Shown here: positions 4,847 through 24,113 of the stretch, piece after piece
Numbering within the stretch: the stretch's first letter is position 1
Layout: every line of letters starts with the position of its first letter
Source of the DNA: a virus
Length of the DNA stretch: 43,303 bases
Strand: one strand, 5' to 3'
Virus record (IMG/VR): IMGVR_UViG_3300030616_000007
Coordinates: 1 to 43,303 of that record
Made by a program: the position numbers and the translations under genes
The notes under the pieces: generated by a model
The model's database searches: none
Seen by the model: only the letters and a program-made list of their open reading frames with translations
Told to the model about the DNA's origin: nothing

Positions 4847-6601
4847 TTATGTAGCCTCCTGATAAACTCTGCAACATATTACGTTACTAGCATCTTTGTA
4901 GTGGGTTAAATCTGCTTTTTCTGCGGTAAGAGTGAAATCAGTGTCGGCATTACTGGTATTATCACTATCAACCGTTTCCCAGGCCGGAGTATTTCTATTA
5001 AAGATTTGTAAATAAACCCTTGAAGAAGATGGAGCAAGCGAGCTTTGTCCTTCCCACTCCAGCTGACAAGTATTATTAGCTCCCACAAAATCCTTAAACT
5101 GGTGGATCATGTATTGCCCCATACCAGTTTGCCCCACTCTCACATCATCTTTGTCTGCCACATCAATTATGTCTTGGGCGGAGTAGTTGTTTTCTAAATC
5201 AAGTATTCCTGTTGGTAAGGCCGCCTCATCGCCTCGAGTATATAATTGATAGCCTTCACTCGGCGACGGAGAGATGGAAAGCGAGGGTGAAAGAGAGGCA
5301 GACAGAGACGGTGAGGCAGAAATAGAAGCGCTGGGTGATGGACTAATACTGGCTGACGGAGAAACACTAGAGCTGGGCGACAAAGAGGGCGAGAGGCTTG
5401 GACTCAAACTGGGAGAAATACTGATACTGGGAGAGAGCGATGGGCTTAATGAAATCGAGACTGAAGGGGACAATGAGGGAGAAGCACTTGGAGACACTGA
5501 AAGAGACGGGCTGAGTGAGGGCGACAGTGAGGGCGATGGGGACAACGACAGGGACGGGGACAATGACGGAGACGGAGATAAAGATAGAGACGGAGATAGG
5601 GATGGGGACAATGAAGCCGACAGGGAGGGAGAAAGAGAGGGACTGACTGAAGATGAGGGCGATAAGGAGGGGGACGGCGACAAAGACAGTGACGGAGAAA
5701 GAGAGGGGCTTAAAGATGGCGATAAACTAATTGAAATGGATGGACTAGCAGAAATTGAAACAGAGGGAGAGGGGCTGATTGAAACTGAGGGAGACAGGGA
5801 GGGAGAAAGAGAAATTGAAACAGAAGGACTTAAACTAACAGAAACAGAGGGGCTAAGTGACACCGAAGCCGACGCAGACACCGAGGGCGACAAAGAGACG
5901 CTAACTGAAGGCGAGGGTGAAATAGAGGCGCTTGGACTAACACTGCTTGAGGGTGAAAGGGATGGAGACAGGGAAGGGGAAGGTGAGCCAAAAACGGGAG
6001 TGCATAGGCCGTCGTTAATCTTTATGTAGTCAACGTGATATTCGCCATTACCAGCTACCGTTCCTCCGCCAGTAAGTTGAATCTGTCCATCTGTAATGCT
6101 TGCATACGAAGCGTCTGCGTCTGTAACTTCCAGGCTATCATCAACGTAAATATCAACATCTGTTTGGCTATTGTGAATATCAAGCTGGATCGTGTGCCAA
6201 TCGTTATCCCAGGTCTTAGTCAAAACCTTAACATAAGCAGCCCCGTCATATACCCAAATACCATCCCCACTACCAAAAGGGCCACTATAATCATTCGCTA
6301 GAAAAACAGCTACCCTACACGCACCCCCATCAATAATTAGTTTTATTCCCCAATTACTATTCCCAAAACCATCCCACTGGTCTGCCTTAAAGCGCATCAA
6401 CACGGTTAGATTGCCACTCCCCATGCTGCCCATATCTTGAGTAATACGAGCAATAGCATTGGCGGAAGCCGACCTAATATCGCCATGCCACTGTCCAGAC
6501 GGATCAATTTCAGACACCGCCCCATTACTGCTGGTGTCCGTCCAGTCGTCTAGGTCGGTATCGAAATCTTCAACAAAGAGTCCCCAAGTACAACTAGCCA
6601 T
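4847..6601 (-). CDS. LamG-like domain plus Ser/Pro-repeat virion protein (584 aa)
   Basis: Residues 1-205 resemble a concanavalin/LamG-type jelly roll, with features such as DNDWHTIQLDI, VDIYVDDS and a closing YHVDYIKI strand. This fold often binds carbohydrate. Residues ~206-448 are S-P-S-x repeat, and residues ~449-584 are a separate C-terminal domain rich in Asp, Asn and Thr. The layout of head domain, mucin-like stalk and tip domain suggests a surface fibre or adhesin. The gene directly follows the sugar locus, with 23 bases between it and the glycosyltransferase fusion. The LamG call is by eye and moderate; the repeat tract is certain. Confidence 0.8.
   Translation of the reverse strand: MASCTWGLFVEDFDTDLDDWTDTSSNGAVSEIDPSGQWHGDIRSASANAIARITQDMGSMGSGNLTVLMRFKADQWDGFGNSNWGIKLIIDGGACRVAVFLANDYSGPFGSGDGIWVYDGAAYVKVLTKTWDNDWHTIQLDIHNSQTDVDIYVDDSLEVTDADASYASITDGQIQLTGGGTVAGNGEYHVDYIKINDGLCTPVFGSPSPSLSPSLSPSSSVSPSASISPSPSVSVSLSPSVSASASVSLSPSVSVSLSPSVSISLSPSLSPSVSISPSPSVSISASPSISISLSPSLSPSLSPSLSLSPSPSLSPSSSVSPSLSPSLSASLSPSLSPSLSLSPSPSLSPSLSLSPSPSLSPSLSPSLSVSPSASPSLSPSVSISLSPSLSPSISISPSLSPSLSPSLSPSSSVSPSASISPSPSASISASPSLSASLSPSLSISPSPSEGYQLYTRGDEAALPTGILDLENNYSAQDIIDVADKDDVRVGQTGMGQYMIHQFKDFVGANNTCQLEWEGQSSLAPSSSRVYLQIFNRNTPAWETVDSDNTSNADTDFTLTAEKADLTHYKDASNVICCRVYQEAT
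5258..5986 (-). repeat. Ser/Pro-rich repeat tract 3 (about 243 residues)
   Basis: Same S-P-S-x composition as the other tracts, lying between the LamG-like domain and the C-terminal domain. Its complement produces a long acidic antisense reading frame that is an artefact of the repeat. Confidence 0.9.
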
Positions 6602-6624: not shown

Positions 6625-8334
6625 CTATCTCAACACAACCCAAGTCCCAATGAACCCAAACCCACTCCAATCCCATCCCTCTATATCAAAACACTTCTTT
6701 TCAGTCCATCCCTGAGTATATTTTTGATTCCTAAACTGTGACTTTTTCCATCTGGTAGCGCTGAGATTAGTCGTGTGGCGAATATCTATGTTGGGGTATT
6801 TTGATCTCCAAACATCAGATTTGTAGTCGTCTATTCTCTGTTCTCGGTTGTGGGTTCCTGGCTCAAACCCCATTCCTAGAATATCTTTAGTCGAATTCTC
6901 ACCAGCTAACAACCTCTCCATCCGCTTCTGATAGTGTTGGAGTAGTAGCTCACGTGATGCACAGATCGAGGGTAAGAGCTTGCTATCATAGTAGAGACAA
7001 TGCCCATCAGATGCTCTCAATCGCCACCAGTTGAGATTGTAGTAATAAGTATCATCCCGAGGTGGGGTAAATTCAAAGTGTGATGGGTGGTATAACCAGT
7101 CGTGTTCGCAAAAGAAAATATACTTAGCTTCCGAGGCTTCTATGGCTTTGAGAATCTGGGTAAAGTAGGCCATGTAACCCCGCTCCATCTTGATGTGTAT
7201 GTTTTTACCCATATCGGGCATGGGCTTTAGGGAAGCGCTAACAATCGGTAAACCGATAGATTTAATCTGTTTTTTACACGGGTGGGCAATCTTCAAAGTA
7301 AGCTGATTGTCGGTATAGTACACAATGCCTTTGGTGGGTTTCATGAACTTCTCCCCTTCTTTGTTAATTAGGTCTAACATTTTCTTTCCCTTGGGATCGT
7401 GCCAGTCTGGTAGAGGCTTAAACTTGTCGATTAGCCAGGATAGTGGGTGCTTCTGCTTAGGCCAGCGGTTGTATAAAAACAACTCTCTGGAGTATTGGCG
7501 GGCGTGTTCTATCTGCCTACCGTTCTGGGGGTAGGGAAAGTTAAAGTCTCCCCCCTGGGTCCTGAATAGATGTGAATACCAAGTTTTTTTATTAACCACT
7601 ACCCTACCGCCAGAAAGCCAGGTTTTCAAAGCCACCTCTGTTCCCTGCTGTCCCCAGGAGCCAAAGGCTTCATCACACACCCCTAATTCCCAGTATTTCT
7701 TCCTGGTCATCATAAAGCACGAACCTTGTAGCGACAGGGTTTCTGCTACATCAAGCATCGCTTCTGGGTGTTTCTTTCTAGCCCCGTGATACTGAAAATG
7801 TAGGGTAGTATCGAAGCGATAAAATTCATTTCTCCGGCTTAGTCTGGGTTTCCAGACCATCACCCTCTCAAACTTAGTGCTGTCACAAGCCTTGTTTTTA
7901 GTCCTCTTCTCTCCTGGGTCGTTACAGAATCTGGGAGTTGGCCCCTGATACCATTCATTACCACACTTTGTACACCTCCAGTTAAAGGCATGAAGGTTAT
8001 ACATGGCTGGAACCATAGTCATATCATCCTGCATATCCCTCATCATCTTTACGTCAAAGCCCTCATCAACAATGCAGTGAGCGTCTAGCTTCATTACATA
8101 TTTAGCCCGAGAAACATTAGCGGCCTCATTAACCGCCGCCCTCTGCCCGATGGGAGTAGCGTGGTAAACCAAGGTAACGTCACGGTGATCTGTCACTGGA
8201 GGATCAGGCCAGTTACCATCACAGACAACAATTACTTCAGTAAGACCACGCTTATTTTTTAGCACCCCCTCAACCGTTCTGCTTAGGAATTCCTCGTTTC
8301 TGGCGGCGATTAAAACTGACAGATCGTATTTCAT
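6625..8334 (-). CDS. Two-domain glycosyltransferase: GT2 domain with zinc-ribbon insert fused to second GT-like domain (569 aa)
   Basis: Residues 1-300 are a family-2 GT-A glycosyltransferase, with an N-terminal SVLIAARNE strand, CDGNWPDPP loop, KLDAHC as the DxD-type metal/nucleotide site, and a WGQQGTEVALKTWLSGG acceptor-side helix. A Cys-rich insert (CTKCGNEW ... C ... C) near residue 120 looks like a zinc ribbon. Residues ~335-569 are a second domain related to the separate glycosyltransferase-like proteins at 9706-10353 and 13297-14046, sharing I-S-x-KPM ... GxNI ... AKYIFFCEHDWLY. It overlaps the upstream dehydrogenase gene by ATGA. Fusion implies two sequential transfers on one glycan. 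Donor and acceptor are unknown. Confidence 0.85.
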   Translation of the reverse strand: MKYDLSVLIAARNEEFLSRTVEGVLKNKRGLTEVIVVCDGNWPDPPVTDHRDVTLVYHATPIGQRAAVNEAANVSRAKYVMKLDAHCIVDEGFDVKMMRDMQDDMTMVPAMYNLHAFNWRCTKCGNEWYQGPTPRFCNDPGEKRTKNKACDSTKFERVMVWKPRLSRRNEFYRFDTTLHFQYHGARKKHPEAMLDVAETLSLQGSCFMMTRKKYWELGVCDEAFGSWGQQGTEVALKTWLSGGRVVVNKKTWYSHLFRTQGGDFNFPYPQNGRQIEHARQYSRELFLYNRWPKQKHPLSWLIDKFKPLPDWHDPKGKKMLDLINKEGEKFMKPTKGIVYYTDNQLTLKIAHPCKKQIKSIGLPIVSASLKPMPDMGKNIHIKMERGYMAYFTQILKAIEASEAKYIFFCEHDWLYHPSHFEFTPPRDDTYYYNLNWWRLRASDGHCLYYDSKLLPSICASRELLLQHYQKRMERLLAGENSTKDILGMGFEPGTHNREQRIDDYKSDVWRSKYPNIDIRHTTNLSATRWKKSQFRNQKYTQGWTEKKCFDIEGWDWSGFGFIGTWVVLR

Positions 8335-9218
8335 TTTTTCCAGCTATCAGGGAGTAATTGATTTTTGTCTTTATAGCCCTTACGCCAGTACAGGGCGTTC
8401 TTGAAAATCAGGTGTTCTAGGGTTTTTAGACCAGATTGACGCAACGAATAGGCCAGGGCGTTCATGTCTTTGGGAAGGCACTTACCACTCCAGCCTCTAT
8501 TTTTAGGGTACACATTGGAATGGGTACGGTTCATGCGGGGATCAAGCACTAATCCTTCCCTAACCTGAGCAAAAGACTGGTTAAATGCCCGACAAATATC
8601 ATGCACATCATTCCAGTAATCCACCCGCCTCATAATCCAGTAGTTCTCACAATACTTGATTACCTCTGCTTCTTTGGCAGAACATAGCAGAATCTCGGCA
8701 TTGGCGGTCAACACATAGCGGAAAAACTCGGCAATCTTTTCCCTGGCATGGCGCTTGCCGCCGATAATCTGAAATTGGTTACGGTCTGGGTTAGTCAGGG
8801 GATGGCCTAGAGTTTCACCCACATACTCAGGACTCATGGCAATCTTCACCTCATACTTCTCTCTCAATCTATCGGTTGTGCCTATCTCTACCGTGCTTTT
8901 AATTAAAAAGTAATCCACAATGTCCTTGTACTTTTCCACGCTCTTTTCCACAATTGAGGTATCACACTGGCCACTTCTGGGGTTCATGGGGGTAGGAACC
9001 GAGATAATAGCCAAATCGTATTTAAGAGTGGCTGGATCAACCGTTTTATAAATCGGCTTATCCTCCTGGTTCCTTACCACCCCATCACTCCTAACATAGT
9101 CGGCGCTTCTAAACAGTCCGCCCATATACTGCCCCACCCACCCATACCCAATTAGTAGCACTCTCGGCTCTTGATTGATAACATCACTATCTGGTTGGGG
9201 TTTGCCCAGCTGGTTCAT
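8331..9218 (-). CDS. UDP-glucose/GDP-mannose dehydrogenase family protein, short (295 aa)
   Basis: NAD-dependent nucleotide-sugar dehydrogenase family; canonical members oxidise UDP-glucose to UDP-glucuronate in two steps. Visible signatures are the Rossmann loop GYGWVG (24-29), SVPTPM (73-78), the KSTVEIG segment, SPEYVGE in place of the usual NPEFLREG, and the catalytic-Cys motif GKCLPKD (Cys247). The protein is ~295 aa against roughly 400-450 for typical enzymes, and the C-terminal UDP-binding domain is almost entirely missing. Either it is a compact variant or it acts on another substrate. It overlaps both neighbours by 4 bases. Product might feed arabinose or uronic-acid donors for the adjacent transferases (inference). 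Confidence 0.85.
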   Translation of the reverse strand: MNQLGKPQPDSDVINQEPRVLLIGYGWVGQYMGGLFRSADYVRSDGVVRNQEDKPIYKTVDPATLKYDLAIISVPTPMNPRSGQCDTSIVEKSVEKYKDIVDYFLIKSTVEIGTTDRLREKYEVKIAMSPEYVGETLGHPLTNPDRNQFQIIGGKRHAREKIAEFFRYVLTANAEILLCSAKEAEVIKYCENYWIMRRVDYWNDVHDICRAFNQSFAQVREGLVLDPRMNRTHSNVYPKNRGWSGKCLPKDMNALAYSLRQSGLKTLEHLIFKNALYWRKGYKDKNQLLPDSWKK

Positions 9219-9709
9219 TTAAGCACCTCTGATAAATTGACAAAATTTGATAATACCGTAGTCCAAGGCTTCTCTTTGGTGTAGTTAAAACGGTACTTAA
9301 ACCGAGGGTAAACATTGGCTAATCCATATAACCTATCATCCTCTGGCTGAGTGTCGTGAATAATCACAAACTGGGTATTTTTAACCAATCTCTTGGTTTC
9401 CTCCCGCCTTCGCCTGTGTCCATGATCTACAAAAGCCACTGACCAGGGCTTATCAATGTCGATTGCGTCCCAATCATTGTTCTCAACAAAGTTTACTTGA
9501 TGGAACGACTTGTGGAAGTGTTTGTGCATATCGTAGTATTTTCTGACGTGTTCGTAAGAAACTAAGTTTCTACCCATGTCAAAACACATCCAGTGTAATA
9601 GTGGGGTGCTAAACATACCTATCCCCAACTCCAGCACATCCCCAGAGGTCTGTTGCATAACTTTAATTAAAATTGGGTAGTGGCTGCTCCAATGTGGCCA
9701 GTATTTCAT
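9215..9709 (-). CDS. Class I SAM-dependent methyltransferase-like protein (164 aa)
   Basis: Contains a motif I-like DVLELGIGMFSTP near residue 25, an acidic motif II region (SYEHVRKYY), and an FVDHGHRRRREETKRL segment followed by FVIIHDTQ, as in compact Rossmann methyltransferases of the Methyltransf_24/CmcI type. At 164 aa it is short for a complete enzyme. It sits inside the sugar locus with ATGA-type overlaps on both sides, so O-methylation of a sugar is a reasonable role. The substrate cannot be read from sequence. Confidence 0.7.
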   Translation of the reverse strand: MKYWPHWSSHYPILIKVMQQTSGDVLELGIGMFSTPLLHWMCFDMGRNLVSYEHVRKYYDMHKHFHKSFHQVNFVENNDWDAIDIDKPWSVAFVDHGHRRRREETKRLVKNTQFVIIHDTQPEDDRLYGLANVYPRFKYRFNYTKEKPWTTVLSNFVNLSEVLK

Positions 9710-10353
9710 TTGAATAGTTCCTTTCTTAGATCATCGGCCTTGCCCCAGTAGGGTATCTCGTCCACTGGCGGCTCGATTATTTTAGTATGTTTACTCATGC
9801 CCTGCTCAGTCTTAACGCTGACAACGGGCCTGTCAATATCAAACAGTTTCCATCTTCTGCGCCTGAAAATCTCAATTGGGCGCTCGTTGGTTCTTTTTTT
9901 ATCCCAAAACGGCCTATCCCTTAATACCCAATCAATTTCTCTAATCAAGTGTTCTCTGCCTGTAATTTGTGAGAAGGTTCCAAACTCTTTGGGGTAAAAG
10001 CCGCTATATTCTCCCTTACCCCACTCGTTCAAAACATAATTGTTGGTGCATTTGTAGCTCTCGTTGATGTTTTTAGGCATATACTGAAAGTAGTCTGGTG
10101 GGTAGAGACAGTCGGCCTCAGCGTGGGCTATAAAGGAGGTCGTTGCTAGTTTAGCCCCTATCTGTATCTGGCGGAATAGGTTGTGGTTACAAGCTTCCAT
10201 TTCACCCACACAAATGTTTATTCCCAGCTTCATCGGCTTGTGGGTAACAGAGATTATAGGCAAGCCGTGAGAGGCTTTTATCAAATTCTTGGCTATCTTG
10301 TCTTGTAGGTCGGGTTTTTCTCGATTAGAAGAGTAAAAGACAATCGTATTCAT
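9706..10353 (-). CDS. GT-A-like glycosyltransferase, phage paralogue family (215 aa)
   Basis: Begins with a strand ending FYSSN, then has PIISVTHKPM, GINICVGEMEA and FIAHAEADCLYPPDYF. The last contains an acidic EAD triad where GT-A enzymes carry DxD. It aligns by eye over its whole length with 13297-14046 and with the C-terminal half of the 569-aa fusion. Together they define a three-member family restricted to this locus within the window. No signal peptide or membrane segment is visible, so it is probably cytosolic. The family name is not one I can state with certainty. Confidence 0.75.
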   Translation of the reverse strand: MNTIVFYSSNREKPDLQDKIAKNLIKASHGLPIISVTHKPMKLGINICVGEMEACNHNLFRQIQIGAKLATTSFIAHAEADCLYPPDYFQYMPKNINESYKCTNNYVLNEWGKGEYSGFYPKEFGTFSQITGREHLIREIDWVLRDRPFWDKKRTNERPIEIFRRRRWKLFDIDRPVVSVKTEQGMSKHTKIIEPPVDEIPYWGKADDLRKELFK

Positions 10354-11015
10354 TTCTGCGCCTTAGAAATTACCATGTTATCGGGTTCATAGTCTAGTTC
10401 CCGTCTCACCTCTGTCTTAAAACCAGGCACACACTCCGACAGGAAAAATTGCCTTTCCCTACTCCAAAAGAGGCAATCATCCCTAGTGGGGGTGATGTTC
10501 CATTGATGGAAGCCTTGGTAGTGCTGGCCTCTAGCATTGTCGGGGAAGTGCCTCAAATAAATCCACCCCCCAGGCTTACAGACCCGATACATCTCTTTTA
10601 TGGCGTTATAGGCATTATTACAGTGGTCTAGTGCATTGACAGCGTGGACAATATCAAAAAAATTGTTTTCATAAGTTAAGTTTTCCATGTCCTGCTGTTC
10701 TATGGGATAAAGGGGTTTATACCCGTTCTCCAAGTCTTTACCCCACCTTTTATCTTTACGCCTTAAAAATTCGTTAAACTTGTCGGCTAGAATGTCTGAG
10801 GGGTAAAGAATAATCTTAGCGGAGGGGTGCTGGTTGCCTGTAGTTGATACCACTCCCGCCCCCAAGTCAGCAATCTTGACTTCCTTCTTGTCTCCTATCA
10901 TTGAATCAAAATAAGTCGCTAGGCGGAATTTCTTGTTAAACTGCCTAAACTTCCATTTTGATTTTAAGTAGTAAAACTTTAATGTTTGGCGTTTGCCATC
11001 TTCCCATTGACTCAT
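10350..11015 (-). CDS. Class I SAM-dependent methyltransferase (221 aa)
   Basis: Methyltransf_11-type fold: motif I as IADLGAGVV (residues ~49-57), a post-I acidic strand (LYPSDIL), motif IV-like FFDIVHAVNALDHC, and a post-motif VCKPGGWIYLRHF. The LDHCNNAYNAIKEMYRV helix is typical of small-molecule and sugar methyltransferases. It is one of three methyltransferases in the locus and overlaps its neighbours by 4 bases. Likely role is methylating a sugar or nucleotide-sugar intermediate; the acceptor is unknown. Confidence 0.8.
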   Translation of the reverse strand: MSQWEDGKRQTLKFYYLKSKWKFRQFNKKFRLATYFDSMIGDKKEVKIADLGAGVVSTTGNQHPSAKIILYPSDILADKFNEFLRRKDKRWGKDLENGYKPLYPIEQQDMENLTYENNFFDIVHAVNALDHCNNAYNAIKEMYRVCKPGGWIYLRHFPDNARGQHYQGFHQWNITPTRDDCLFWSRERQFFLSECVPGFKTEVRRELDYEPDNMVISKAQK

Positions 11016-11638
11016 TTTTTTAACCAGACCCAGAAGCCATAATCGCCGACTGGTTCTGTCCTCAAGATTTTAAATTTTAATCTTTGACACAATTTACCAA
11101 TGGACTGCTCGGTGTAAGACACGCCCGCCCACCAAGGTTCCAAGCTCTCTAGCTTGTCTGAGCGTATCCTAACCTTAAATATTCCTTTAGGTTTCAGCAC
11201 CCGATAGACTTCCTCAAAATTCTTCTCTACCATCTCTTTAGTCTTGATGTGCTGAAAAACTAAATAGGAAAACACCAAATCAACCGACTCGTCTGGTAGG
11301 GGAATGGTCTGGCCGTCGGTTTCAATAAACTCCGCTCCAATAACTCTTTTTCTGGCTTGTTTGACCATCTCCCTAGATATGTCTAGCCCGATAACTCTAC
11401 CAAAATCAGTCACCATAAATTCTGTCATTCTTCCCGTACCACACCCCAAGTCAATTATGGTAGCCTTGCCAAAATTTATCCTCTTAGTAAGAACCTCATC
11501 ACTCTTGATGTGCGCTAGGTAATCTTGCGCCCCGCTTTGACGAAACTCATCTTTGGTGATGTTTTTGCCATAGTCGGAGTTAATGTAGTATCTGGAGTTC
11601 TTCTGGGCTAGTTTTTCCCAGAGTGTTTTTTGATCCAC
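11012..11638 (-). CDS. Class I SAM-dependent methyltransferase, GTG start (208 aa)
   Basis: Methyltransf_11 domain with motif I IDLGCGTGRMTEF, motif II IGLDIS, IETDGQTIPLPDESVDLVFS and VLKPKGIFKVRI, all in the expected order. I chose GTG at 11636-11638 because AGGTGG lies five bases upstream; a GTG three codons earlier is less well placed. It overlaps the end of the upstream mutase gene by 31 bases. A tandem pair with the next methyltransferase suggests methylation at two positions on the same product. Substrate not deducible. Confidence 0.82.
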   Translation of the reverse strand: MDQKTLWEKLAQKNSRYYINSDYGKNITKDEFRQSGAQDYLAHIKSDEVLTKRINFGKATIIDLGCGTGRMTEFMVTDFGRVIGLDISREMVKQARKRVIGAEFIETDGQTIPLPDESVDLVFSYLVFQHIKTKEMVEKNFEEVYRVLKPKGIFKVRIRSDKLESLEPWWAGVSYTEQSIGKLCQRLKFKILRTEPVGDYGFWVWLKK

Positions 11639-12465
11639 TCGATCCACCTTTTTCTCTTGTTAAAGAATAATTCAAAATAGTCGTCTAGGCCATAATTTTC
11701 GTTGAGTTTAATCCCCTTGGCTTCTTTTACCAAATTATTAAACACGTTTGATGCTCGATCATGCTTAACCGTCGAATACCCAGTTACCGCCGCCCACCCC
11801 AATCTGTCAATGTCTTTTTTGGCCTCTATGCCGCCCCAAATGTCGGCGAACCGATTAAGGTCGCCGAACATGGGAGCTTGGTAGATGTAGGGCAACAGTT
11901 TACGCTTAAAGGCAAAATTCATGGCACACAGGGGGAATAGACAACCCTTGGGTATTGATCCTTTATAGAATTCGACTGGCTGATTGCCTTTGACTAACTG
12001 GGTCGAAGCATCCCAGTCGGCCACACCCTCCCAGACACCATGAGATAAAACCACCTCGGCTTCGTCTCGTATGCCATAAGGAAAGCCTCGAGTGTATTCT
12101 GAGGCGGTAGATAGCCAAGAGACAGGCACACGCCGTTTAAGAGCGTCTAGGTGGTCTTGGATGGGGTCGCCCACAGGCTTCACATCGTCATCAAGGGAAA
12201 TAATTATGTCAATCTCTGGGTAATATCTGGCGATAATTGCAAAAGCAAAGTTTCTCACTCCGTCATTAAAGTTATAGATTAAGTCGCTTATCTTACCAAG
12301 ATCGTCTAGTCGCCACTTTTTGCCCGACTCTGAATAAATGTATGGGTCTTTACCATCGTTTACCTGAAACAAAAACACCTTATGCTTCCAAAACAGGTTA
12401 AACCAAGCATCCATAAACACCTTCATTTTTTCCGGCCTGATGGTGGGTACAACTACAGCTATCAT
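11608..12465 (-). CDS. Reversibly glycosylated polypeptide / UDP-arabinopyranose mutase-like protein (GT75) (285 aa)
   Basis: Strong resemblance to plant RGP/UAM proteins, which interconvert UDP-arabinopyranose and UDP-arabinofuranose. Visible motifs are SLDDDVKP (the DDD metal site, residues 92-94), YTRGFPYGIRDE (~124-135, containing the Arg-Gly-Tyr/Phe-Pro motif that carries the autoglycosylated Arg in plant enzymes), LSHGVWEGVADWDASTQLVK, IPKGCLFPLCAMNFAF and RFADIWGG. Plant RGPs are about 340-365 aa, so this is a compact version lacking the C-terminal extension. It lies within the sugar operon and overlaps the upstream GT-B gene by ATGA. A GT75 in a phage is unusual. Mutase activity is inferred from the conserved motifs. 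Confidence 0.85.
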   Translation of the reverse strand: MIAVVVPTIRPEKMKVFMDAWFNLFWKHKVFLFQVNDGKDPYIYSESGKKWRLDDLGKISDLIYNFNDGVRNFAFAIIARYYPEIDIIISLDDDVKPVGDPIQDHLDALKRRVPVSWLSTASEYTRGFPYGIRDEAEVVLSHGVWEGVADWDASTQLVKGNQPVEFYKGSIPKGCLFPLCAMNFAFKRKLLPYIYQAPMFGDLNRFADIWGGIEAKKDIDRLGWAAVTGYSTVKHDRASNVFNNLVKEAKGIKLNENYGLDDYFELFFNKRKRWIEWIKKHSGKN

Positions 12466-13316
12466 TCTTTATGGGGTAAGTATTTATAAAGCTCACTAAT
12501 ATACTGATGGTGGTATGCCTGGGCTTTTGAGAGCGCCTTGCCGCCGTAATACTGGTAATAAGCCCTATTCTCCTTGAGTTCTTTACAGCTATCAAGTAGG
12601 TGGTCTATTGTCCTTGTCTCAATAAAGCAATCGTTCCACTCGTCAAGATAACTCGGCTCAGGGAAAGCTACTGTAGGAATACCAAACGAGCCAGCATTTT
12701 CTAACTTTAAGGGGCTTCTTAGTTTCTCTACTGCCGCCCTCCACTCTGGCCTCCACACCACCTGAATATCAATGGTTTTGTGAAAGTTGCAGACTTTCTC
12801 ACGGCTATCTTTGCCGTTTTTGTCGGGTTCGTTGTTATAGTGCTTCCAGTGATCTTCCTCATAACGAAGCTCTAAACCGATTTCCTTCAACTGCTTCCTT
12901 AGTTTCTTAACTGGGTACTGTAGGGCGGTGCGGCTACCTATCACTCCCACCGTCTTGACCTCCCGATCAAACGGCCTAACCCAGCTTTCATAGTTGCAGT
13001 GGTGATGAGGGATAAAAACCACATCTTTTCTTTTTAGGGTCTTCTGAAGATAATCTTTGGCCACCTGGGAAATAGCAATTACTCCCACTTTGGGATGTGT
13101 TTTGAGCCATTTAACCGCCCTGTCAGCATCCACCACATCCAAATAAGACGATTTGGGGTGTTTCTCTGGGGGAGTAATCTTGACGTAGATACAAATATCG
13201 TTTTCATAGCCCTTGGTGGGATTAAGCTTGGCTCCTAAAAAATCAGCTACTTGGATGCCTCTCACGTTGGCGGCTCCACCCCTGGCACAAAAAATACTAA
13301 AGCTCTTTGGGTTCAT
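12462..13316 (-). CDS. GT-B-like glycosyltransferase (284 aa)
   Basis: Residues ~1-120 look like an N-terminal Rossmann half (FCARGGAANVRG, YLDVVDADRAVKWL, VGVIAISQVAKDYL), then VFIPHHHCNYESW as a linker. The C-terminal half has VGVIGSRTAL and KLENAGSFGIPTVAFPEPSYLDEW, which matches the donor-site segment of GT1/GT4-type enzymes (Glu before Ala-x-x-x-G-x-P). It is short for this fold (typical 350-400 aa) but both halves are recognisable. It is in the middle of the sugar operon, just before the RGP-like mutase. Donor and acceptor are unknown. Confidence 0.7.
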   Translation of the reverse strand: MNPKSFSIFCARGGAANVRGIQVADFLGAKLNPTKGYENDICIYVKITPPEKHPKSSYLDVVDADRAVKWLKTHPKVGVIAISQVAKDYLQKTLKRKDVVFIPHHHCNYESWVRPFDREVKTVGVIGSRTALQYPVKKLRKQLKEIGLELRYEEDHWKHYNNEPDKNGKDSREKVCNFHKTIDIQVVWRPEWRAAVEKLRSPLKLENAGSFGIPTVAFPEPSYLDEWNDCFIETRTIDHLLDSCKELKENRAYYQYYGGKALSKAQAYHHQYISELYKYLPHKE

Positions 13317-14046
13317 AGTAAAACCTCACTATATCCTCGGCTCTGCCGATATCTACTAATTCAATTGCTTTTAAGTCGCCCAGGCGCTTTCTGTTGCCAT
13401 GATTTGATTCATACCCAAAAGCCTTGGGGTGGGTAAACACGATACTGGGTAAATTACAATAAAAGTCGGCGGTTTTCCTTACAGTAACTCCCAGCAGGGC
13501 TTCATACCTGCCTGGGTCGCCCCAGTAGTGAATCACCTCAGCCTCACTCTTTCCCTGCTTCATTAGAAACTCTGCCCGCTCAAACCTTTCTTCGAGGGCT
13601 TCAATCCATAGTTTTCTGGGAGCGATAAGCTGGTTGACTACCCGCCTCTTAGTACGGTAGGAAAACATGGGCGGCTTAGTCCAGGTAAAGATGCTCCATC
13701 GGTTCATGTCAAACAAAAACACATCATCTTTGGGGACAGTGGTGTGGAAGTGGTTATAGGAATACAAAATATCGTCCTCGGCCATAGCCACATATTTACT
13801 GGTGGCCGCCTTGCAACCAGCTAGTATCTGCCTATAGATATTTAAGTGTGATCTGCCTATGTCCCCCATACAGATATTCTGCCCGAAGTTCATGGGTTTT
13901 TGGGAGACGCTGATAAGCGGATGGTCGCCAACTACTTTAAGTAGGTGTTTTCTGGTGTTCTCGACAAATATAGGGTTCTGGGTGTCGAGGTGGTTGGAAG
14001 TATAGTAGATGATAGAAATGTCTAGGGGTGTTTTACTTAGCCACAT
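13297..14046 (-). CDS. GT-A-like glycosyltransferase, phage paralogue family (249 aa)
   Basis: Paralogue of 9706-10353 and of the C-terminal domain of the 569-aa fusion. It has IIYYTSN, PLISVSQKPM, GQNICMGDIG, and YVAMAEDDILYSYNHF with an EDD acidic site. The middle region (DDVFLFDMNRWSIF) parallels the NLNWWRLR stretch of the fusion protein. I chose the ATG at 14044-14046 because it places the first beta strand as in the paralogue and overlaps the upstream gene by only 14 bases; an in-frame ATG at 14077-14079 is possible. Probably a cytosolic transferase for the same glycan. Confidence 0.75.
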   Translation of the reverse strand: MWLSKTPLDISIIYYTSNHLDTQNPIFVENTRKHLLKVVGDHPLISVSQKPMNFGQNICMGDIGRSHLNIYRQILAGCKAATSKYVAMAEDDILYSYNHFHTTVPKDDVFLFDMNRWSIFTWTKPPMFSYRTKRRVVNQLIAPRKLWIEALEERFERAEFLMKQGKSEAEVIHYWGDPGRYEALLGVTVRKTADFYCNLPSIVFTHPKAFGYESNHGNRKRLGDLKAIELVDIGRAEDIVRFYYEPKEL

Positions 14047-15271
14047 TTTTAAGAAATTCTCCCACAACCTCCAGAACATACTCGACCTGCTTGCCGTCCA
14101 TGCCCTGATGACAACCTAGTAATAAACCGTTTTCCATAATTAGATCAGCGTTTTTAAGCTCTGAGGCAATCCTGAATTTGTCTGGAGAGGTACGATAAGC
14201 GGGGTGACGGGTAATGTTGCCCGCAAACAATACTCTGGTCTGGATGCCATGATCTTCTAGGTATTTAAGCAGTTGAAAACGGGCAAATGGCGCTCCCTTC
14301 TTAATCGTTAAGGGGAAAGCCAACCAATTGGTTCTAGCCTTAGTGCCGAGAGTGGCGTGGCCGTCTAAAACTTTAGGTAAGTGAAACCAGTCGTTGTGAA
14401 GCCTAAAGTAGTTGAGCATGGTTAAGAAGTTTTCATTTCTCTGCTTGATAAATCCAGGTAGGCGCTTTAACTGCTCTAATCCAAAAGCCGCCGCCGCCTC
14501 ATTCATCTTTAAGTTGTAGCCAAACTCCCCATAAAGAAACTTAGAATCGTAGGGGATACCGTCAATCTGGTAGCCAAACCTTTCCTCAAAACCTTCTCCG
14601 TCGGCATTAAGTCGCCCCCAGTCTTTCAAAAGAATTCCCCTAGTGTGCTTAACCCTGTCGCTCAAACACACCATACCACCAAAGCCCATCGCAGTAATAA
14701 TATGGGAGCCATAAAAGCTGGTGGTAGAAATATCGCTATAATAGCCCGATGGACGGTTGTTTATTTTAACTCCTAGTGTGTCGCAACTATCATCAACGAG
14801 TGCTAAATGATACGTGTCGCAAATCTCTCTGAGCTTCTTTAGGTCTGCCACCCCGCCGATTAAATGCGGAGCCATGATAGCCTTAGTCTTGGGGGTAATG
14901 GCTTGCTCTACTAAATCTTCATCCATTACGTATCTACCTATAACCGAATCGACAAATACAGGGACAAGGTTATTTTGTAGCAGAGACGAAACCACAGTGC
15001 TAAAAGTACAGGCGGGAGTGATAACCTCACTGCCTGGAGGAAGATCAAGCATCTCAAAAGCTAGTAGATTAGCCGATGATCCTGAGTTAGTAGCGATACC
15101 GTACTGATGCCCAAATAAATCAGCTATTTTCTGTTCAAATTCAGCTACTTTAGGGCCAGCCGCTAGCCAGGGGTTCTCTAATGACTCTAAAACGGCTTTT
15201 TTCTCCTCAACCCCATAGACCGCCTGGGCATAGAGAACTTTATAATCGACTTTACCTTGTTTGTTTTGCAT
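14033..15271 (-). CDS. ColD/RfbH-like PLP-dependent sugar 3-dehydratase of the DegT/AHBA family (412 aa)
   Basis: Aspartate-aminotransferase fold of the DegT/DnrJ/EryC1/StrS family. At the site of the usual PLP-binding Lys there is His (TTSFYGSHIIT, His190), as in ColD and the E1/RfbH 3-dehydratases that remove the C3 hydroxyl of 4-keto-6-deoxy sugars. Other matches are DDSCDTLG, SKFLYGEFGYNLKMNEAAAAFGLEQL, and the RfbH-type signature TRVLFAGNITRHP. The [2Fe-2S] cysteine cluster of E1/RfbH (after the DWGR segment) is absent, making it more like ColD. The start at 15269-15271 is set by GGGAGGATC directly upstream. Product would be a 3,6-dideoxy-type sugar. Its partner 4,6-dehydratase is not seen in the window. 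Confidence 0.85.
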   Translation of the reverse strand: MQNKQGKVDYKVLYAQAVYGVEEKKAVLESLENPWLAAGPKVAEFEQKIADLFGHQYGIATNSGSSANLLAFEMLDLPPGSEVITPACTFSTVVSSLLQNNLVPVFVDSVIGRYVMDEDLVEQAITPKTKAIMAPHLIGGVADLKKLREICDTYHLALVDDSCDTLGVKINNRPSGYYSDISTTSFYGSHIITAMGFGGMVCLSDRVKHTRGILLKDWGRLNADGEGFEERFGYQIDGIPYDSKFLYGEFGYNLKMNEAAAAFGLEQLKRLPGFIKQRNENFLTMLNYFRLHNDWFHLPKVLDGHATLGTKARTNWLAFPLTIKKGAPFARFQLLKYLEDHGIQTRVLFAGNITRHPAYRTSPDKFRIASELKNADLIMENGLLLGCHQGMDGKQVEYVLEVVGEFLKNVAK

Positions 15272-16127
15272 GATCCTCCCATGTTGGTACTGGTGCGAAT
15301 TTATCCACCAGCCATTTAATATTGTGTTTCTGCTTGTGCCAAGCCTTGCCATCCATCCACTTGTTAGTATAAGCCGTTCCTTTAGCCCACTGTTCCTTAC
15401 TAAGTGAATAGCCCCGCCCGTGGCTCTTGGGCTTGTGCCAGTGGGCATACCAACACTTTTTATTCCTTACCATCCTACCACCTGACAACCAGCATTTTAA
15501 GCCTATCTCCTGCATTTCCTTGGCAAACTGGCCGTAATTCTCCTCATCCATTAACTCTAACCAGTAGAAGTAATCACGCTTGAGGAACCAGGCTGATCCC
15601 TGTGCAGTCATAAGATCATCAATCAACTTTTCCTTGAGTTTGGGGTCGAGGTTTTTATCCCGCCACTCTTTAGCCTGTAATCCCTTACCGCCCCAGACAC
15701 TCTCATTTTCTGGGTGGGCTAGATAAAGGTAATCAATGTCTGGCCTGCCATCGTGAATAATGCTCCACAACTCAGGCTCTAGCCGCTTTCTTCTAGGAAC
15801 CACTACCCAGTCCTTCTCACAGTCTTTTTTAAGGGCTTCATCATAGCCCTGGCTCAACATACAGTGAGCATCTACTTTGAAGATATACTCACCCTTAGCC
15901 TTGTCCACTCCGGCATTGATAGCCTGTCTCATGCCCCGAGCTTCCCCGAAATGGATGTAAATAACTTTGGGGTCGTTAACCATTTCATTGGCTGGCGGCC
16001 AGTAGCCGTCTAATACGGGAACCACCTCAATTTCTTGGGTAGCTTTGTCAATCAGGTCTAAAATCGTTTTCTGGAGATATGGTTCATTTCTGGCGGGGAT
16101 AACGACAGAAACTAGATCCTTTTTCAT
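15252..16127 (-). CDS. Family 2 glycosyltransferase (291 aa)
   Basis: GT-A fold: SVVIPARNEPYL at residues 6-17, PVLDGYWPP, EARGMRQAINAGVDKAKGEYIFKVDAHC with DAH as the DxD-like site, and KEMQEIGLKCWLSGGR. It is clearly a paralogue of the N-terminal domain of the 569-aa fusion, sharing the ARNE, DG-x-WP-P, DAHC and LSGGR motifs and the Trp-rich C-terminus (H-K-x-WLVDKF). First gene of the sugar operon; its end overlaps the dehydratase start by 20 bases. Cytosolic, since no membrane helix is visible. Donor unknown. Confidence 0.88.
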   Translation of the reverse strand: MKKDLVSVVIPARNEPYLQKTILDLIDKATQEIEVVPVLDGYWPPANEMVNDPKVIYIHFGEARGMRQAINAGVDKAKGEYIFKVDAHCMLSQGYDEALKKDCEKDWVVVPRRKRLEPELWSIIHDGRPDIDYLYLAHPENESVWGGKGLQAKEWRDKNLDPKLKEKLIDDLMTAQGSAWFLKRDYFYWLELMDEENYGQFAKEMQEIGLKCWLSGGRMVRNKKCWYAHWHKPKSHGRGYSLSKEQWAKGTAYTNKWMDGKAWHKQKHNIKWLVDKFAPVPTWEDHAKQTR

Positions 16128-16520: not shown

Positions 16521-17837
16521 CTATACATCTGGGAATGATGGGCTTGGTGATTCTGATAAGCTAGGTGATAGTGATGGACTTGGAGACAGGGATGGAGAAG
16601 CTGAAGGTGAAACACTGGGCGAGTAAGAGATTGATGTCGAAGGACTCGGCGAGGGGCTAAGTGAAACTGAAACAGATGGAGATAAAGATGGGCTAGCGCT
16701 TGGAGAAGATGAGGCTGAGGGCGATAGAGACGGGCTAGCGCTAACCGACACTGAGGGGCTGGGTGAACCAGACAGCGACGGACTAAGAGAGGACGATAAA
16801 CTAACTGAGGTAGATGGACTGGGAGAGCCGCTGGGGGTCGTTGAAGCGCTGGCCGAAGGAGAGGCCGAGGGGCTGGGTGAGGGTGAAGGGGATTTACTAA
16901 CCGAAACAGACGGACTGAGTGATGGTGAAGGAGAGCCACTAAGGGAGGGTGAGGCCGAGGGGCTTGGGGATAGGGATGGGGAAAGGGATGGAGAAAGGCT
17001 AGCTGAAACGGAGGGTGAGGGGCTGGGTGTGGCGGAAGGTGATAATGATGGACTACCTGAAGGGGAAACTGAGGCTGACGGGCTAAGACTTGGCGAATGG
17101 CTAACTGATAGTGAAGGAGATAGTGAGCCGCTAAGAGATGGGCTGAGCGAGGGGGAGACTGACAAGGATGGACTGGCTGACGGACTGATTGAGGCTGATG
17201 GAGATAAACTGATGGATGCAGATGGCGAAACTGAGGCTGACGGGCTAACTGAGAGTGATGGTGATAGAGAAATACTAACACTGGGAGATAACGAGATACT
17301 GATACTTGGCGAGGCCGAGGGACTGACTGATGGGCTGGCACTGGGAGATACTGAAGATGATGGACTAAGGCTGGGTGACAATGACTGGCTAACTGAGGCG
17401 GAGGGTGAAACTGAAGGGCTAGCACTAACGGATGCAGAGGCTGAAGTTGAGGGAGACGGTGAGACAGATACTGATGGGGATGGGGAAACTTGACCCGCCG
17501 CCATCAACATCCACGAAGCAGAATCTTCGTCGCCCACGTTGATGTAAACATTTAGGCCAGTTTTGTCTAGGTCTCTGAAATAAGCACCTTTAACAAAACC
17601 CGTATAGCCAGTGGGGACGGTGTTGCCTTCTGCCTCAAGAATATAGTCGGTTGAGCTATCGGGGATTTCACCACCCGAGTCATGATAGCGAAGGACTTTG
17701 TTTGTTCTATAAGGGTCTAATGCCGTCAAAAAATCGCTCTGGGTATCGTTGCGTTCACTAGAATCAAGGGCTTCAATTCTTGCAAGCTCGTTTCTCGCTT
17801 CTCTTGATAAGTCCTTTTTGAGTTCAAAGACAGCCAT
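16521..17837 (-). CDS. Ser/Pro-repeat protein immediately after the capsid gene (438 aa)
   Basis: Residues 1-116 are a folded N-terminal domain with a helical start (LKKDLSREARNELARIEAL) followed by a compact beta region ending ASWMLMAAGQ. Residues ~117-434 are S-P-S-x repeat, ending in a free tail SFPDV. It follows the major capsid gene after a strong hairpin and has its own AAGGGG ribosome-binding site. Position suggests a head decoration protein whose N-terminal domain docks on the capsid and whose ~320-residue mucin-like tail projects outward. The docking role is inference. Confidence 0.82.
   Translation of the reverse strand: MAVFELKKDLSREARNELARIEALDSSERNDTQSDFLTALDPYRTNKVLRYHDSGGEIPDSSTDYILEAEGNTVPTGYTGFVKGAYFRDLDKTGLNVYINVGDEDSASWMLMAAGQVSPSPSVSVSPSPSTSASASVSASPSVSPSASVSQSLSPSLSPSSSVSPSASPSVSPSASPSISISLSPSVSISLSPSLSVSPSASVSPSASISLSPSASISPSASPSLSVSPSLSPSLSGSLSPSLSVSHSPSLSPSASVSPSGSPSLSPSATPSPSPSVSASLSPSLSPSLSPSPSASPSLSGSPSPSLSPSVSVSKSPSPSPSPSASPSASASTTPSGSPSPSTSVSLSSSLSPSLSGSPSPSVSVSASPSLSPSASSSPSASPSLSPSVSVSLSPSPSPSTSISYSPSVSPSASPSLSPSPSLSPSLSESPSPSFPDV
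16536..17489 (-). repeat. Ser/Pro-rich repeat tract 4 (about 318 residues)
   Basis: C-terminal S-P-S-x tract of the capsid-adjacent protein. Compared with the other tracts it has slightly more Ala, Thr and Gly (SASASVSAS, TTPSGSPS). Confidence 0.9.
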
Positions 17838-17887: not shown

Positions 17888-18997
17888 TTAGAATTTCCAA
17901 AAACCTTCAGCGGCAAAGTGCCTTCTTGCGTCGGCTACTTTGGCTCCGTACACAAAGAGGTCTTTGTAGGCTGAACCGAAGTCGCCAGTCAAGTCCTCTT
18001 CAATGTCCGCTTCTAAGAGCTTCTCGGCAAATGTACACCAGCCTGGGTGTCCAGCGAGGACACGGAAGCCGTCGGTGTTATTACCAGTAAGACGATTAGA
18101 CTTATAGACCTTAAAGCCCTGAAGCATGGTTATAAAGCCCTTTTTCACTAGCTCTTGATAGGCTTCAGGCACGTGCAGCGCTACACCAGAGGCTCGAACC
18201 AGCATGGTTTCAAACTCTGGGGGGACGATTAACCATCGGTCTGTATCAGGAACAGTAGATTTCTCATTTCTGTCAGCGATGTCTAATTTCTCCTTGAGTT
18301 TGGACACGTATTGCAAGAGGTTGGAAGTAGAGATTTGCAACACGGTAGCCGCTTCGATGGTGTAACTAGATCCACCAGCAATCGCTCCACCGTCATATGC
18401 AGACGTTTCATCGTCTGAGTCGTTTTCGATGGTGATGTGAGTAGGGTCTGTGTAGGTTTTTACCCTGTACCACTTATCATGGCCGTCTGCCTTAAAACCT
18501 CGGCCTTCCATGGCCTCAGTAAAGGTTGTTCCAGCACCAACGACTGCCCCTGTGGTGGCGGTGATTGTAACTGTCCCAGTGGTGTAGTCAGTAGCAACCC
18601 TATTCCCTGCGGCAACGTCGCCGTACAAAGCCAGAGTGAACAAGTCCATATTTCTGGCACGTTCACCTGCTTTTTGCTGCACAACGGTTGAGTGGGGGTT
18701 TTTAATGTAGGAGAGCCAGCGGTCAATCGTGTACTCTCTCCAGTAGAATGATTTATATTGATCTATTACAAGTTCCGCATTGACTTCGTATAGATCCTCG
18801 ACAGACAGACCACCTTTTGTATAGGTCTGTTCAGAGATACGAGCGAAGTTAAGAATGTTCAGTTTAGAACCAACGCCGTTGATTTCCCCTTCATAATCAC
18901 GGTTTACAATCACATCAGTTAAGCTGCGATCATATACCTCTCTCAGAAGTTTCTGGGAAAATCCCTCAGCGATTGTAGTTGCGTATGCTGAAGACAT
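17888..18997 (-). CDS. Major capsid protein, HK97 fold, P22 coat-like (369 aa)
   Basis: N-terminal helical segment (FSQKLLREVYDRSLTDVI), then FYWREYTIDRWLSYIKNP as in P22-type coat proteins. A Thr/Gly-rich beta insertion (~residues 135-215) looks like an I-domain, followed by the spine-helix-like ATVLQISTSNLLQYVSKLKEKLD and DRWLIVPPEFETMLVRA, which is typical of this coat group. It ends VYGAKVADARRHFAAEGFW. It has the best ribosome-binding site in the head module (AGGAGGTGAA before ATG), a candidate promoter just upstream and a strong hairpin just downstream, consistent with high expression. Forms the capsid shell together with the scaffold gene upstream. Confidence 0.88.
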   Translation of the reverse strand: MSSAYATTIAEGFSQKLLREVYDRSLTDVIVNRDYEGEINGVGSKLNILNFARISEQTYTKGGLSVEDLYEVNAELVIDQYKSFYWREYTIDRWLSYIKNPHSTVVQQKAGERARNMDLFTLALYGDVAAGNRVATDYTTGTVTITATTGAVVGAGTTFTEAMEGRGFKADGHDKWYRVKTYTDPTHITIENDSDDETSAYDGGAIAGGSSYTIEAATVLQISTSNLLQYVSKLKEKLDIADRNEKSTVPDTDRWLIVPPEFETMLVRASGVALHVPEAYQELVKKGFITMLQGFKVYKSNRLTGNNTDGFRVLAGHPGWCTFAEKLLEADIEEDLTGDFGSAYKDLFVYGAKVADARRHFAAEGFWKF

Positions 18998-19864: not shown

Positions 19865-20030
19865 TACCGTCCTCCTTTGAGGGTTTGGTTAATATTGATT
19901 GATAAAACTCCTTTTGCTCCTCAGTTAAGTAGCTGCTCCTCGCCCGCAAAAACACAATATCTGAAGGCAAGAGAGCGTGTAGCTCTTTCTGAGTAATTCT
20001 GTCAAGGGTTTTCTGTGCTGACTCGTTCAT
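19806..20030 (-). CDS. Small basic-tailed hypothetical protein (74 aa)
   Basis: Starts with an ATGA overlap on the epimerase stop and ends 59 bases inside the scaffold gene in another frame. Residues 1-50 are helical with ITQKELHALLPSDIVFLRA; residues 51-74 are very Lys/Arg-rich (KKATHQKRRRRKTRKTN). The N-terminal half may be the functional part and the basic tail a by-product of the overlap. Function unknown; a small head-assembly factor is possible from position. Confidence 0.6.
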   Translation of the reverse strand: MNESAQKTLDRITQKELHALLPSDIVFLRARSSYLTEEQKEFYQSILTKPSKEDGNEKKATHQKRRRRKTRKTN

Positions 20031-20812
20031 TTTGGGTTGTATCCTAGTAATTGTTTAGCTTTAGTAATATCAAATAACGACTGATTGCCTTTGGTGAAGT
20101 TGGGGACTCTCGGGTATCTCTTCTGAATAAAACCCTGAATATCGACGTTTCCTGCTCTCTCTATAGGTACAACTGGATCAGCAATATTAAACACCCCAAA
20201 GCCTTGATAGTCGGCTTCACAAGCTGCCCTCACTCCCTCGGCCATGTTTTCCCTACTTATAGAAACATAGAAATGCTCTGATACTGGCCTAGCGCATGGG
20301 TAGTCTCGGGTCTTTCTGCCTGTGGGGGTGTCCATGCGGAGGGCAATGGTGGTCATGTTGTGCTTATGCGCCGCCCTCTCTAAATGTTTTTCACATATCC
20401 GCTTGGAGATAGCATAGTAGTTATCGTCCTTGTCGTCTGGTTTAACATTGTCCTCTCTAATGGGGAATCGCTCTGGGCGACAAAGGTTGGCCTTACTAAA
20501 GCCATATACCGCCCCGCTACTCATATACACCAACCGCTTTACTCTAACTCTGTTACAGGCCTCAATGACACACTGGGTTCCTTTAATGTTTTGGTGTAAG
20601 AAATCTTCCCAGGGGTCCGGGGTGGGTCGGGGGATGCCCGCCAGGTGGATACACGCCTGTTTGCCCTGGAGTTTACCAGCCAACTTAGTAATGTCGTGGA
20701 TGTCCTCACCATTTACCAAGTCATAGCCTGTGATTTCAAAGCCCGTCCGTTGCAAGTATGGAGTTATGGCTCTACCAATGAGTCCCTGATTGCCTGTAAG
20801 TAATATTTTCAT
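20027..20812 (-). CDS. NAD-dependent epimerase/dehydratase, extended SDR family (261 aa)
   Basis: Nucleotide-sugar SDR: TGNQGLIG (residues 6-13) as the TGxxGxxG loop, HLAGIP, MSSGAVYG with the catalytic Ser region, and YYAISK with the Tyr-x-x-x-Lys pair (YAISK). LRMDTPTGRK replaces the usual LR-x-x-N-x-YGP loop. At 261 aa it is shorter than UDP-galactose 4-epimerase or UDP-xylose synthase (~310-340). It lies between portal-side and scaffold-side head genes, about 4 kb upstream of the sugar operon, which it probably serves as an epimerase or decarboxylase. It overlaps both neighbours by 4 bases, so it is fully built into the head operon. Confidence 0.85.
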   Translation of the reverse strand: MKILLTGNQGLIGRAITPYLQRTGFEITGYDLVNGEDIHDITKLAGKLQGKQACIHLAGIPRPTPDPWEDFLHQNIKGTQCVIEACNRVRVKRLVYMSSGAVYGFSKANLCRPERFPIREDNVKPDDKDDNYYAISKRICEKHLERAAHKHNMTTIALRMDTPTGRKTRDYPCARPVSEHFYVSISRENMAEGVRAACEADYQGFGVFNIADPVVPIERAGNVDIQGFIQKRYPRVPNFTKGNQSLFDITKAKQLLGYNPK

Positions 20813-22871: not shown

Positions 22872-24113
22872 TTAAGCTGGTAGCCCCGTATAGATAGGTT
22901 TTACCCCACCTGGGTCGTTGGGCTTCCAGTTTGACTTCTTGCCCGAGGCTATAGCGTATCTGGTCGCATCCATTAAGTGATTAAAAATGTCGCTGGGTTC
23001 GTTGATGATTCTACCATCCTTATCTTCCATCCAAAGGTAGTTGCGGTATTCTTTGAGTAGGTTAATACTGCGCTTGGTGACTGAGATCCGCTGGTCTTGG
23101 AGGTACTGAATGCCGTGTAAAACACTGTCTTTGCCCTTAACTGAGGGAACAACCATCAATCCATAGCTTTTAATCTCGTCAATGCTCTTGGGTTCAGCGC
23201 TGTCCGCCACAACTAAAGCCCTCTCCTGGTTTTTGAAGAAGTCAGCTATTTGTTTGTTGGCTAGTCCCTTGTGATAAAGCAATTCGTCTAAGATGTAGCC
23301 GCCGTTGTATTCATACACCGCCACTGCTGCTGCTGGGTCGTTAGTATAGCCAAAGTCTAGTCCATACCGCCACAACCTAGCCTCATGGGGGAAGCCCGGC
23401 ATATCATCTAGTATCTGCCAGCCAGTGTATATTCTGCCCTCTAGCTCCCCCAGTTGGCCCAGACCATATACCTGCCACCAATGTTTGTTATTTTTGTGTG
23501 ATTCAATTTCCTTAATCGTGTTTTCATCCAAAGCCTCGTTATCTAAATATGTGAGGGTAATAAAATCAATGTCCCCTCTCTGTCCTAGCATATCGGTATA
23601 AAACCAAAACTCAGCCGTTGGGTTCCAGTCCATCCAGATAATATCCCGGGTACGGGTAATTAGTTGGTCGGCGATCTTGTATGAGAGGTTATTGGCCTCG
23701 TTAAGAAAAAGGGTATCACGCCTTGGGCCATGAGCTTTCCCATAAGTATCAAAAGAAGAAAACTCAGCAATACTACCAGTCTCAAAATAATAGGTGTGCT
23801 TACTCTTATTCCACCGGCCATCCTGCCAGTATCCCCGATCCTTCATGATGATCTCAAAGTCACGCATGGCCCCCTTTTCTAGGTGGGGATAGGATTCTGA
23901 GCCGGTGGTAGTGATCTTGTTTTTATTGGATTGGCAGTAGTCAATCAGCCAAATAAGAATAGAGACGGTTTTACTGGCGGAAGTACCACCTGATACCGCT
24001 CTAATGCGTTTCTTTAATTCAAAGATCCTCTTGGTCGCTGTCGTATCTTTGATGTGAAAGTTACTCTGTTGATTTTCCTCCATAGATTGGGGTTGGCACA
24101 AACGGTTCACCAT
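22872..24113 (-). CDS. terL: Terminase large subunit, PBSX/XtmB-like (413 aa)
   Basis: ATPase and nuclease motor for genome packaging. Walker A is SGGTSASKT (41-49), Walker B-like TLFLNEA (134-140). The nuclease domain begins GLDFGYTNDPAAAVAVYEY and includes VVADSAEPKSIDEIKSYG and HLMDATRYA with the late Asp. Length and motifs match the PBSX-type large terminase group. AGGA precedes ATG at 24113, although this start lies 53 bases inside the small-subunit gene; an ATG ten codons later is an alternative. Neighbours are the small subunit and portal. Confidence 0.93.
   Translation of the reverse strand: MVNRLCQPQSMEENQQSNFHIKDTTATKRIFELKKRIRAVSGGTSASKTVSILIWLIDYCQSNKNKITTTGSESYPHLEKGAMRDFEIIMKDRGYWQDGRWNKSKHTYYFETGSIAEFSSFDTYGKAHGPRRDTLFLNEANNLSYKIADQLITRTRDIIWMDWNPTAEFWFYTDMLGQRGDIDFITLTYLDNEALDENTIKEIESHKNNKHWWQVYGLGQLGELEGRIYTGWQILDDMPGFPHEARLWRYGLDFGYTNDPAAAVAVYEYNGGYILDELLYHKGLANKQIADFFKNQERALVVADSAEPKSIDEIKSYGLMVVPSVKGKDSVLHGIQYLQDQRISVTKRSINLLKEYRNYLWMEDKDGRIINEPSDIFNHLMDATRYAIASGKKSNWKPNDPGGVKPIYTGLPA

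Follow-up and report, generated by a model that had tools for sequence, protein, structure and literature searches.

The RGP gene and the cassette around it

The window, i.e. the whole stretch of 43,303 bases analysed here, is a virus record that carries, among other phage genes, those for a terminase large subunit (22872..24113; phrog_5653, E=1e-32, and Pfam Terminase_3C) and a major head protein (17888..18997; phrog_267, E=6e-23), in line with the preliminary description, which had placed the DNA in a phage. Like all window features located below, both lie on the minus strand. At 11608..12465, an ORF with an ATG start encodes a 285-aa GT75/RGP protein, a predicted NDP-pyranose/furanose mutase, in which every one of the conserved blocks quoted in that description (SLDDDV, YTRGFPYGIRDE, LSHGVW, DASTQLVK, and IPKGCLFPLCAMNFAF) was found. 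The Pfam profile PF03214 (RGP) is its sole Pfam match (E=2.4e-28), scoring 99.8 bits against a curated cut-off of 23.8, and the best match is thereby the RGP family and no non-RGP GT2 enzyme; NCBIfam and PHROGs, searched with the same protein, gave no match. Against the PDB sequences, the UDP-arabinopyranose mutase 8cid came first (3.6e-16), followed by MtdL (5e-8), with no significant match beyond these two, and a profile built from 11 phage relatives likewise retrieved only 8cid (7e-26) and MtdL (1.5e-13). The resemblance to the RGP blocks and profile is far beyond chance, and the ORF is a genuine, apparently intact GT75 protein.

The gene is part of a cassette spanning 6625-16127. Its start is overlapped over 4 bases by the end of a gene for a possible glycosyltransferase of 284 aa (12462..13316), whose PHROG glycosyltransferase match is weak (E=0.017), and its 3' end by the start of a gene for a SAM methyltransferase of 211 aa (11012..11647; Pfam Methyltransf_11, E=2e-25), a second one of 221 aa being encoded at 10350..11015 (Methyltransf_11, E=3e-12). 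Two GT2 glycosyltransferases, of 291 aa (15252..16127; Pfam PF00535, E=4e-17) and 569 aa (6625..8334; PF00535, E=4e-12), cluster by BLAST with a 260-aa protein devoid of Pfam matches (13297..14079) and a 215-aa protein (9706..10353), both of which are assigned to the glycosyltransferase family of the cassette through this clustering. Besides, an RfbH/E1-type sugar 3-dehydrase of the DegT family is encoded at 14033..15448: its PDB match 3bcx (E=4e-74) is a CDP-6-deoxy-L-threo-D-glycero-4-hexulose-3-dehydrase, and its NCBIfam RfbH match (1.9e-104) is below the cut-off of that family. The stretch SHIITAMGFGG in this ORF may reflect a His replacing the PLP lysine, as in the E1 family, and the similarities of the protein suggest a dideoxy-sugar step rather than an arabinose one.

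The preliminary description had also proposed that parts of a route from UDP-GlcA to UDP-arabinose are present, a proposal that is not supported within this record. The short UDP-glucose-dehydrogenase-like protein of 295 aa (8331..9218) retains the CLPKD motif (as GKCLPKD) and ends ahead of the C-terminal UDP-binding domain; the 261-aa SDR (20027..20812) only resembles uronate-dehydrogenase-like and Azf-like SDRs, with no clear specific match, and is not recognisable as UDP-xylose synthase or epimerase; and neither a UDP-GlcA decarboxylase (UXS) nor a UDP-xylose epimerase (UXE) was recognised among the ORFs scanned, which cover the small ORFs in part, in a record that is perhaps a fragment. 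A full UDP-arabinose pathway (UGD, UXS, UXE) was thus not found among these ORFs. Similar short UDP-glucose-dehydrogenase-like proteins of 251-295 aa, all without the C-terminal domain, form a phage family (L015, L016, L020, L037, L055).

On either side, the cassette is flanked by Ser/Pro-repeat proteins, namely a 438-aa protein (16521..17837; S+P+T 58%) whose gene separates the cassette from that of the major head protein, and a 584-aa protein (4847..6601; S+P+T 40%) on the other side. A Ser-rich protein of 890 aa (S+P+T 48%) is encoded at 1771..4443.

Fold, active site and relatives of the phage protein

An AlphaFold2 model, computed from a 42-sequence alignment of relatives, reached a pLDDT of 95.6 and a pTM of 0.93. 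With this model, the top Foldseek match was 8cid (rice UAM2), followed by six MtdL structures (E from 2.7e-16 to 8.8e-15), after which E falls off to 7e-6. In VIA-align, the model superposes on OsUAM2 (8cid) with Z 27.6 and 2.4 A over 269 residues, and on MtdL (7xpu) with Z 26.1, the best other GT-A fold among those listed reaching Z 13.8. As the Z of the GT75 structures is twice the best value among the other folds listed, a plain GT2 identity was rejected, and the protein is predicted to adopt a GT75 fold with the GT75-specific core, beyond a mere GT-A fold. FAD-type UGM folds were seen neither among the fold matches listed nor among the profile matches of the protein.

The study of MtdL identifies the residues that contact the metal, the nucleotide, and the sugar or take part in catalysis; among them, D40, D109-D111, R159, D195, R257, D260, and H287 either bind the nucleotide or the metal or are required for activity (PMC9937993). 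Their equivalents in the phage protein were mapped via HMMER alignments, and conservation was counted in 42 sequences. The DDD motif D92-D94 (MtdL D109-D111), the metal His H235 (H287), R126 (R159, the autoglycosylated Arg of plants), D150 (D195), R205 (R257), and D208 (D260, the proposed base) are invariant (42/42 each), as is D37 (D40), whose equivalence, drawn from its position in the N-terminal half, is the least certain of the set. Loss of the DDD motif or of the Arg, looked for through residue conservation and fold superposition, was thus not found, and the RGP/GT75 identity claimed from the letters alone is upheld by profile, fold, and catalytic residues.

With the plant UAM/RGP enzymes (OsUAM1, AtRGP2, and the solved OsUAM2), the phage protein shares the fold and the conserved blocks, and with the active ones among them the DDD motif, the glycosylated Arg, and the base Asp, whereas it is ~60 residues shorter and 25% identical to OsUAM2. 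MtdL and Hyg20, the GDP-L-fucose/galactose mutases of Actinobacteria that are the only characterised bacterial GT75 members (PMC9937993), have the fold and the DDD motif in common with it as well; an equivalent of MtdL D87 is present in addition to those listed above, while Gln229 of MtdL is replaced by M182 and the identity is about 25%. The length of 285 aa, compared to 344-376 aa in the solved GT75 enzymes, counts against a mutase. So does the behaviour of some plant GT75 proteins, which are inactive despite a kept fold. At the C-terminal oligomerisation helix, the phage protein is shorter, the hydrophobic residues F242 and L245 being mostly kept and position 249 being Ala. The closest phage pairs show a dN of 0.13-0.16 and a dS >1 (dN/dS about 0.1), which indicates strong purifying selection on RGP in these relatives. 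The protein is very probably a mutase, and the enzyme class of GT75 mutase is well supported by computation. The family assignment itself is ordinary; the compact, fully conserved active site and the glycosylation-cassette context are moderately interesting.

IMG/VR scans yielded 42 viral RGP relatives. The window protein is closest to proteins of other phages, with identities of up to 65%, bacteria coming next; among the cellular sequences compared, the nearest are bacterial MAGs (41% for Roizmanbacteria, 35% for Anaerolineae), which are closer to it than OsUAM2. The Anaerolineae member shows PRGMPY, NHGLW, DFDAVTQL, and IPRGKYFPMCGMN, and the presence of the same blocks in this bacterium indicates that they are family-wide. 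In addition, Haloferax and Halobaculum carry the family, Haloferax volcanii scoring in the control, and relatives occur on haloarchaeal and planctomycete plasmids; RGP was above its cut-off in 2/380 genomes of the G003 phylum and 2/301 of the G004 phylum, centre genomes included. In the tree, the window protein falls inside a 37-row group that is viral save for two MAG sequences (L054, L055) and is moderately supported (82/97), its own three-row group being strongly supported (98/97). Plants are represented in the tree by OsUAM2 alone, a paralogue that has diverged and whose branch is very long, so that its position is uninformative. Given these bacterial and archaeal members and the phage clade, the term 'plant-type' used in the preliminary description is not supported, and a plant origin of the phage gene appears neither needed nor supported by the data.

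Phage RGP is not new, since an uncultured Caudovirales phage entry in BFVD/UniProt (A0A6J5N5Z7, 'Reversibly glycosylated polypeptide (Fragment)') belongs to the same family (46% identical; Foldseek E=2.7e-24) and phage-encoded GT75 in soil is mentioned in a 2025 paper citing Xu et al. 2024 (PMC12016548); a functional study of RGP or arabinopyranose mutase in a phage was not found in the literature. As the family has already been seen in phages, bacteria, and archaea, the window protein, encoded by a tailed phage, is a well-supported further member rather than a plant gene in a virus. In one relative (L050, 9992-11899, on the same contig as L012), a ~343-aa intein bearing a LAGLIDADG domain splits the phage RGP gene ahead of the conserved Cys in the CxMN block. 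The RGP and glycosyltransferase cassette was also observed on a contig of 38.9 kb from a bin assigned to Candidatus Saccharimonadales (L055, JANWIN010000010.1), a weak hint at Patescibacteria as hosts of related phages.

The sugar nucleotide

At MtdL positions 13, 86, and 87, active plant RGPs carry Pro, Asp, and Ser, whereas the GDP-specific MtdL carries Thr13 where the plants have Pro; exchanging Ser and Asp at the last of these positions, be it in MtdL (D87) or in AtRGP2 (S91), leaves the altered enzyme without its product (PMC9937993). In the phage set, P7 (position 13) is invariant (42/42) and D68 (position 87) is Asp in 26/42 and Ala in 12, while N67 (position 86), facing Asp in plants and Ser86 in MtdL, fits neither type. 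The pocket thereby seems to mix plant and MtdL features: as P7 is plant-like, D68 of MtdL type, and N67 neither, the nucleotide is somewhat more likely to be UDP than GDP, the sugar itself being unreadable from the sequence.

One possible activity is that of a UDP-L-arabinopyranose mutase, forming UDP-L-Araf from UDP-Arap supplied by the host. Rice UAM2 is indeed the closest solved relative, and P7 is shared with the active plant RGPs; however, the MtdL study counts OsUAM2 itself among the inactive plant paralogues (PMC9937993), D68 stands where active plant RGPs have Ser and where the S91D change abolishes the AtRGP2 product, N67 matches neither type, and the window combines a UGD-like ORF lacking its C-terminal domain with no recognised UXS or UXE. 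An FAD-independent mutase for UDP-D-galactopyranose (or a related hexose), yielding UDP-Galf, is just as possible: the plant OsUAM1 and AtRGP2 convert UDP-Galp too (PMC9937993), and GalE-family epimerases adjoin RGP in two relatives (L045, L046) and lie nearby in two others (L017, L011). Nevertheless, GalE was not recognised in the window, and enzymes of the GalE family are also able to convert UDP-Xyl to UDP-Arap, which makes their presence beside RGP compatible with UDP-Gal and UDP-Ara alike and of no use in deciding between the two.

That the protein would be a mutase-dead glycosyltransferase or a self-glycosylating protein is improbable. RGPs do self-glycosylate an Arg, and AtRGP2, when given UDP-Glc, shows glycosyltransferase activity alone (PMC9937993), but the metal His and the phosphate-binding Arg, both lost in the inactive AtRGP5, are invariant in the phage set, together with the Arg and Asp residues on which mutase activity depends. 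The same type of reaction is known from FAD-dependent UDP-galactopyranose/arabinopyranose mutases (UGM; C. jejuni HS:15.16) (PMC10615251), which use flavin, whereas the phage GT75 is predicted to be flavin-independent. GT75 enzymes represent a flavin-free way to NDP-furanoses, and a compact phage branch with its catalytic residues kept could offer small enzymes for furanose chemistry.

Late-region context and possible destination of the sugar

Taken together, we consider it fairly probable that the gene encodes a metal-dependent, flavin-independent GT75 NDP-pyranose mutase that supplies a glycosylation cassette of the late region, whose most likely targets are virion proteins. By homology with the mechanism proposed for MtdL, the DDD motif and H235 would hold a divalent metal on the diphosphate, R126 would act as the nucleophile at the anomeric carbon, with D208 serving as base, and the sugar would close again into a furanose ring and be handed back to the nucleotide, the product being UDP-L-Araf, UDP-D-Galf, or another NDP-furanose. 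The co-encoded late-region glycosyltransferases would probably use this product on phage virion proteins, the flanking Ser/Pro-repeat proteins being candidate acceptors.

Comparison across phages fits late-gene glycosylation of virion proteins. Most of the 42 viral relatives share little with the window beyond RGP, L016 being the only one with head and portal proteins highly identical to those of the window, and neighbourhoods of RGP and glycosyltransferases recur across phages with unrelated structural genes. The neighbours comprise several kinds of glycosyltransferase, including, immediately upstream of RGP in about ten cassettes, a TOD1/MUCI70-type (PF04765) glycosyltransferase-like protein (e.g. 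L043, 16874-17527). Many relatives have their terminase, portal, and capsid genes no more than about 10 kb away from RGP, and 671 of the 741 ORFs of at least 80 aa in the viral loci are co-directional with it. For other phages, e.g. mycobacteriophage Maravista, it has been suggested that phage-encoded glycosyltransferases may glycosylate the capsid (PMC11256854).

The link to Ser/Pro-rich proteins drawn in the preliminary description is suggestive, such repeat proteins flanking the cassette and accompanying related ones. Ser/Pro repeats were found in 7/11 RGP loci that encode two or more proteins of the same glycosyltransferase family and in 0/28 others (Fisher p=2e-5, for loci that share ancestry). 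The seven positive loci fall in one RGP subclade and are not independent, so that the association is partly due to shared ancestry; the window RGP belongs to a different subclade and constitutes a separate case. The Ser/Pro-repeat proteins are a suggestive lead to the acceptor and, should they prove to be so, would provide a testable case of furanosylated virion proteins. A more far-reaching and rather tentative extension is a portable late-gene cassette common to diverse tailed phages, in which GT75 would supply the furanose to dedicated glycosyltransferases that build a mucin- or extensin-like coat on Ser/Pro-repeat virion proteins.

We regard as unlikely the alternative that the sugar remodels the surface of the host, so as to exclude superinfection or change a receptor, and not the virion. 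Phages do carry genes remodelling the host surface, and an RfbH-like 3-dehydrase is typical of O-antigen pathways; however, an O-antigen flippase or acetyltransferase was not recognised among the ORFs scanned, and the cassette sits amid late structural genes, between Ser/Pro-repeat proteins. Attachment of the furanose to phage DNA through a TAGT-type (TET-associated) glycosyltransferase (25614-26348; Pfam TAGT, E=1.1e-13) is very unlikely, for although arabinosylated DNA is known in phage RB69, as stated in PMC6024577, TAGT occurs in 0/42 RGP-bearing records (most of them fragments) and 13 kb separate the TAGT gene from RGP, which lies among the late structural genes.

Independently of RGP, the TAGT-matching gene adjoins a ParB-like gene and may point to DNA-base glycosylation. 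Finally, an ORF at 31655-32314 combines an N-terminal HTH_3 domain with a C-terminal Sigma70 region 4 domain.
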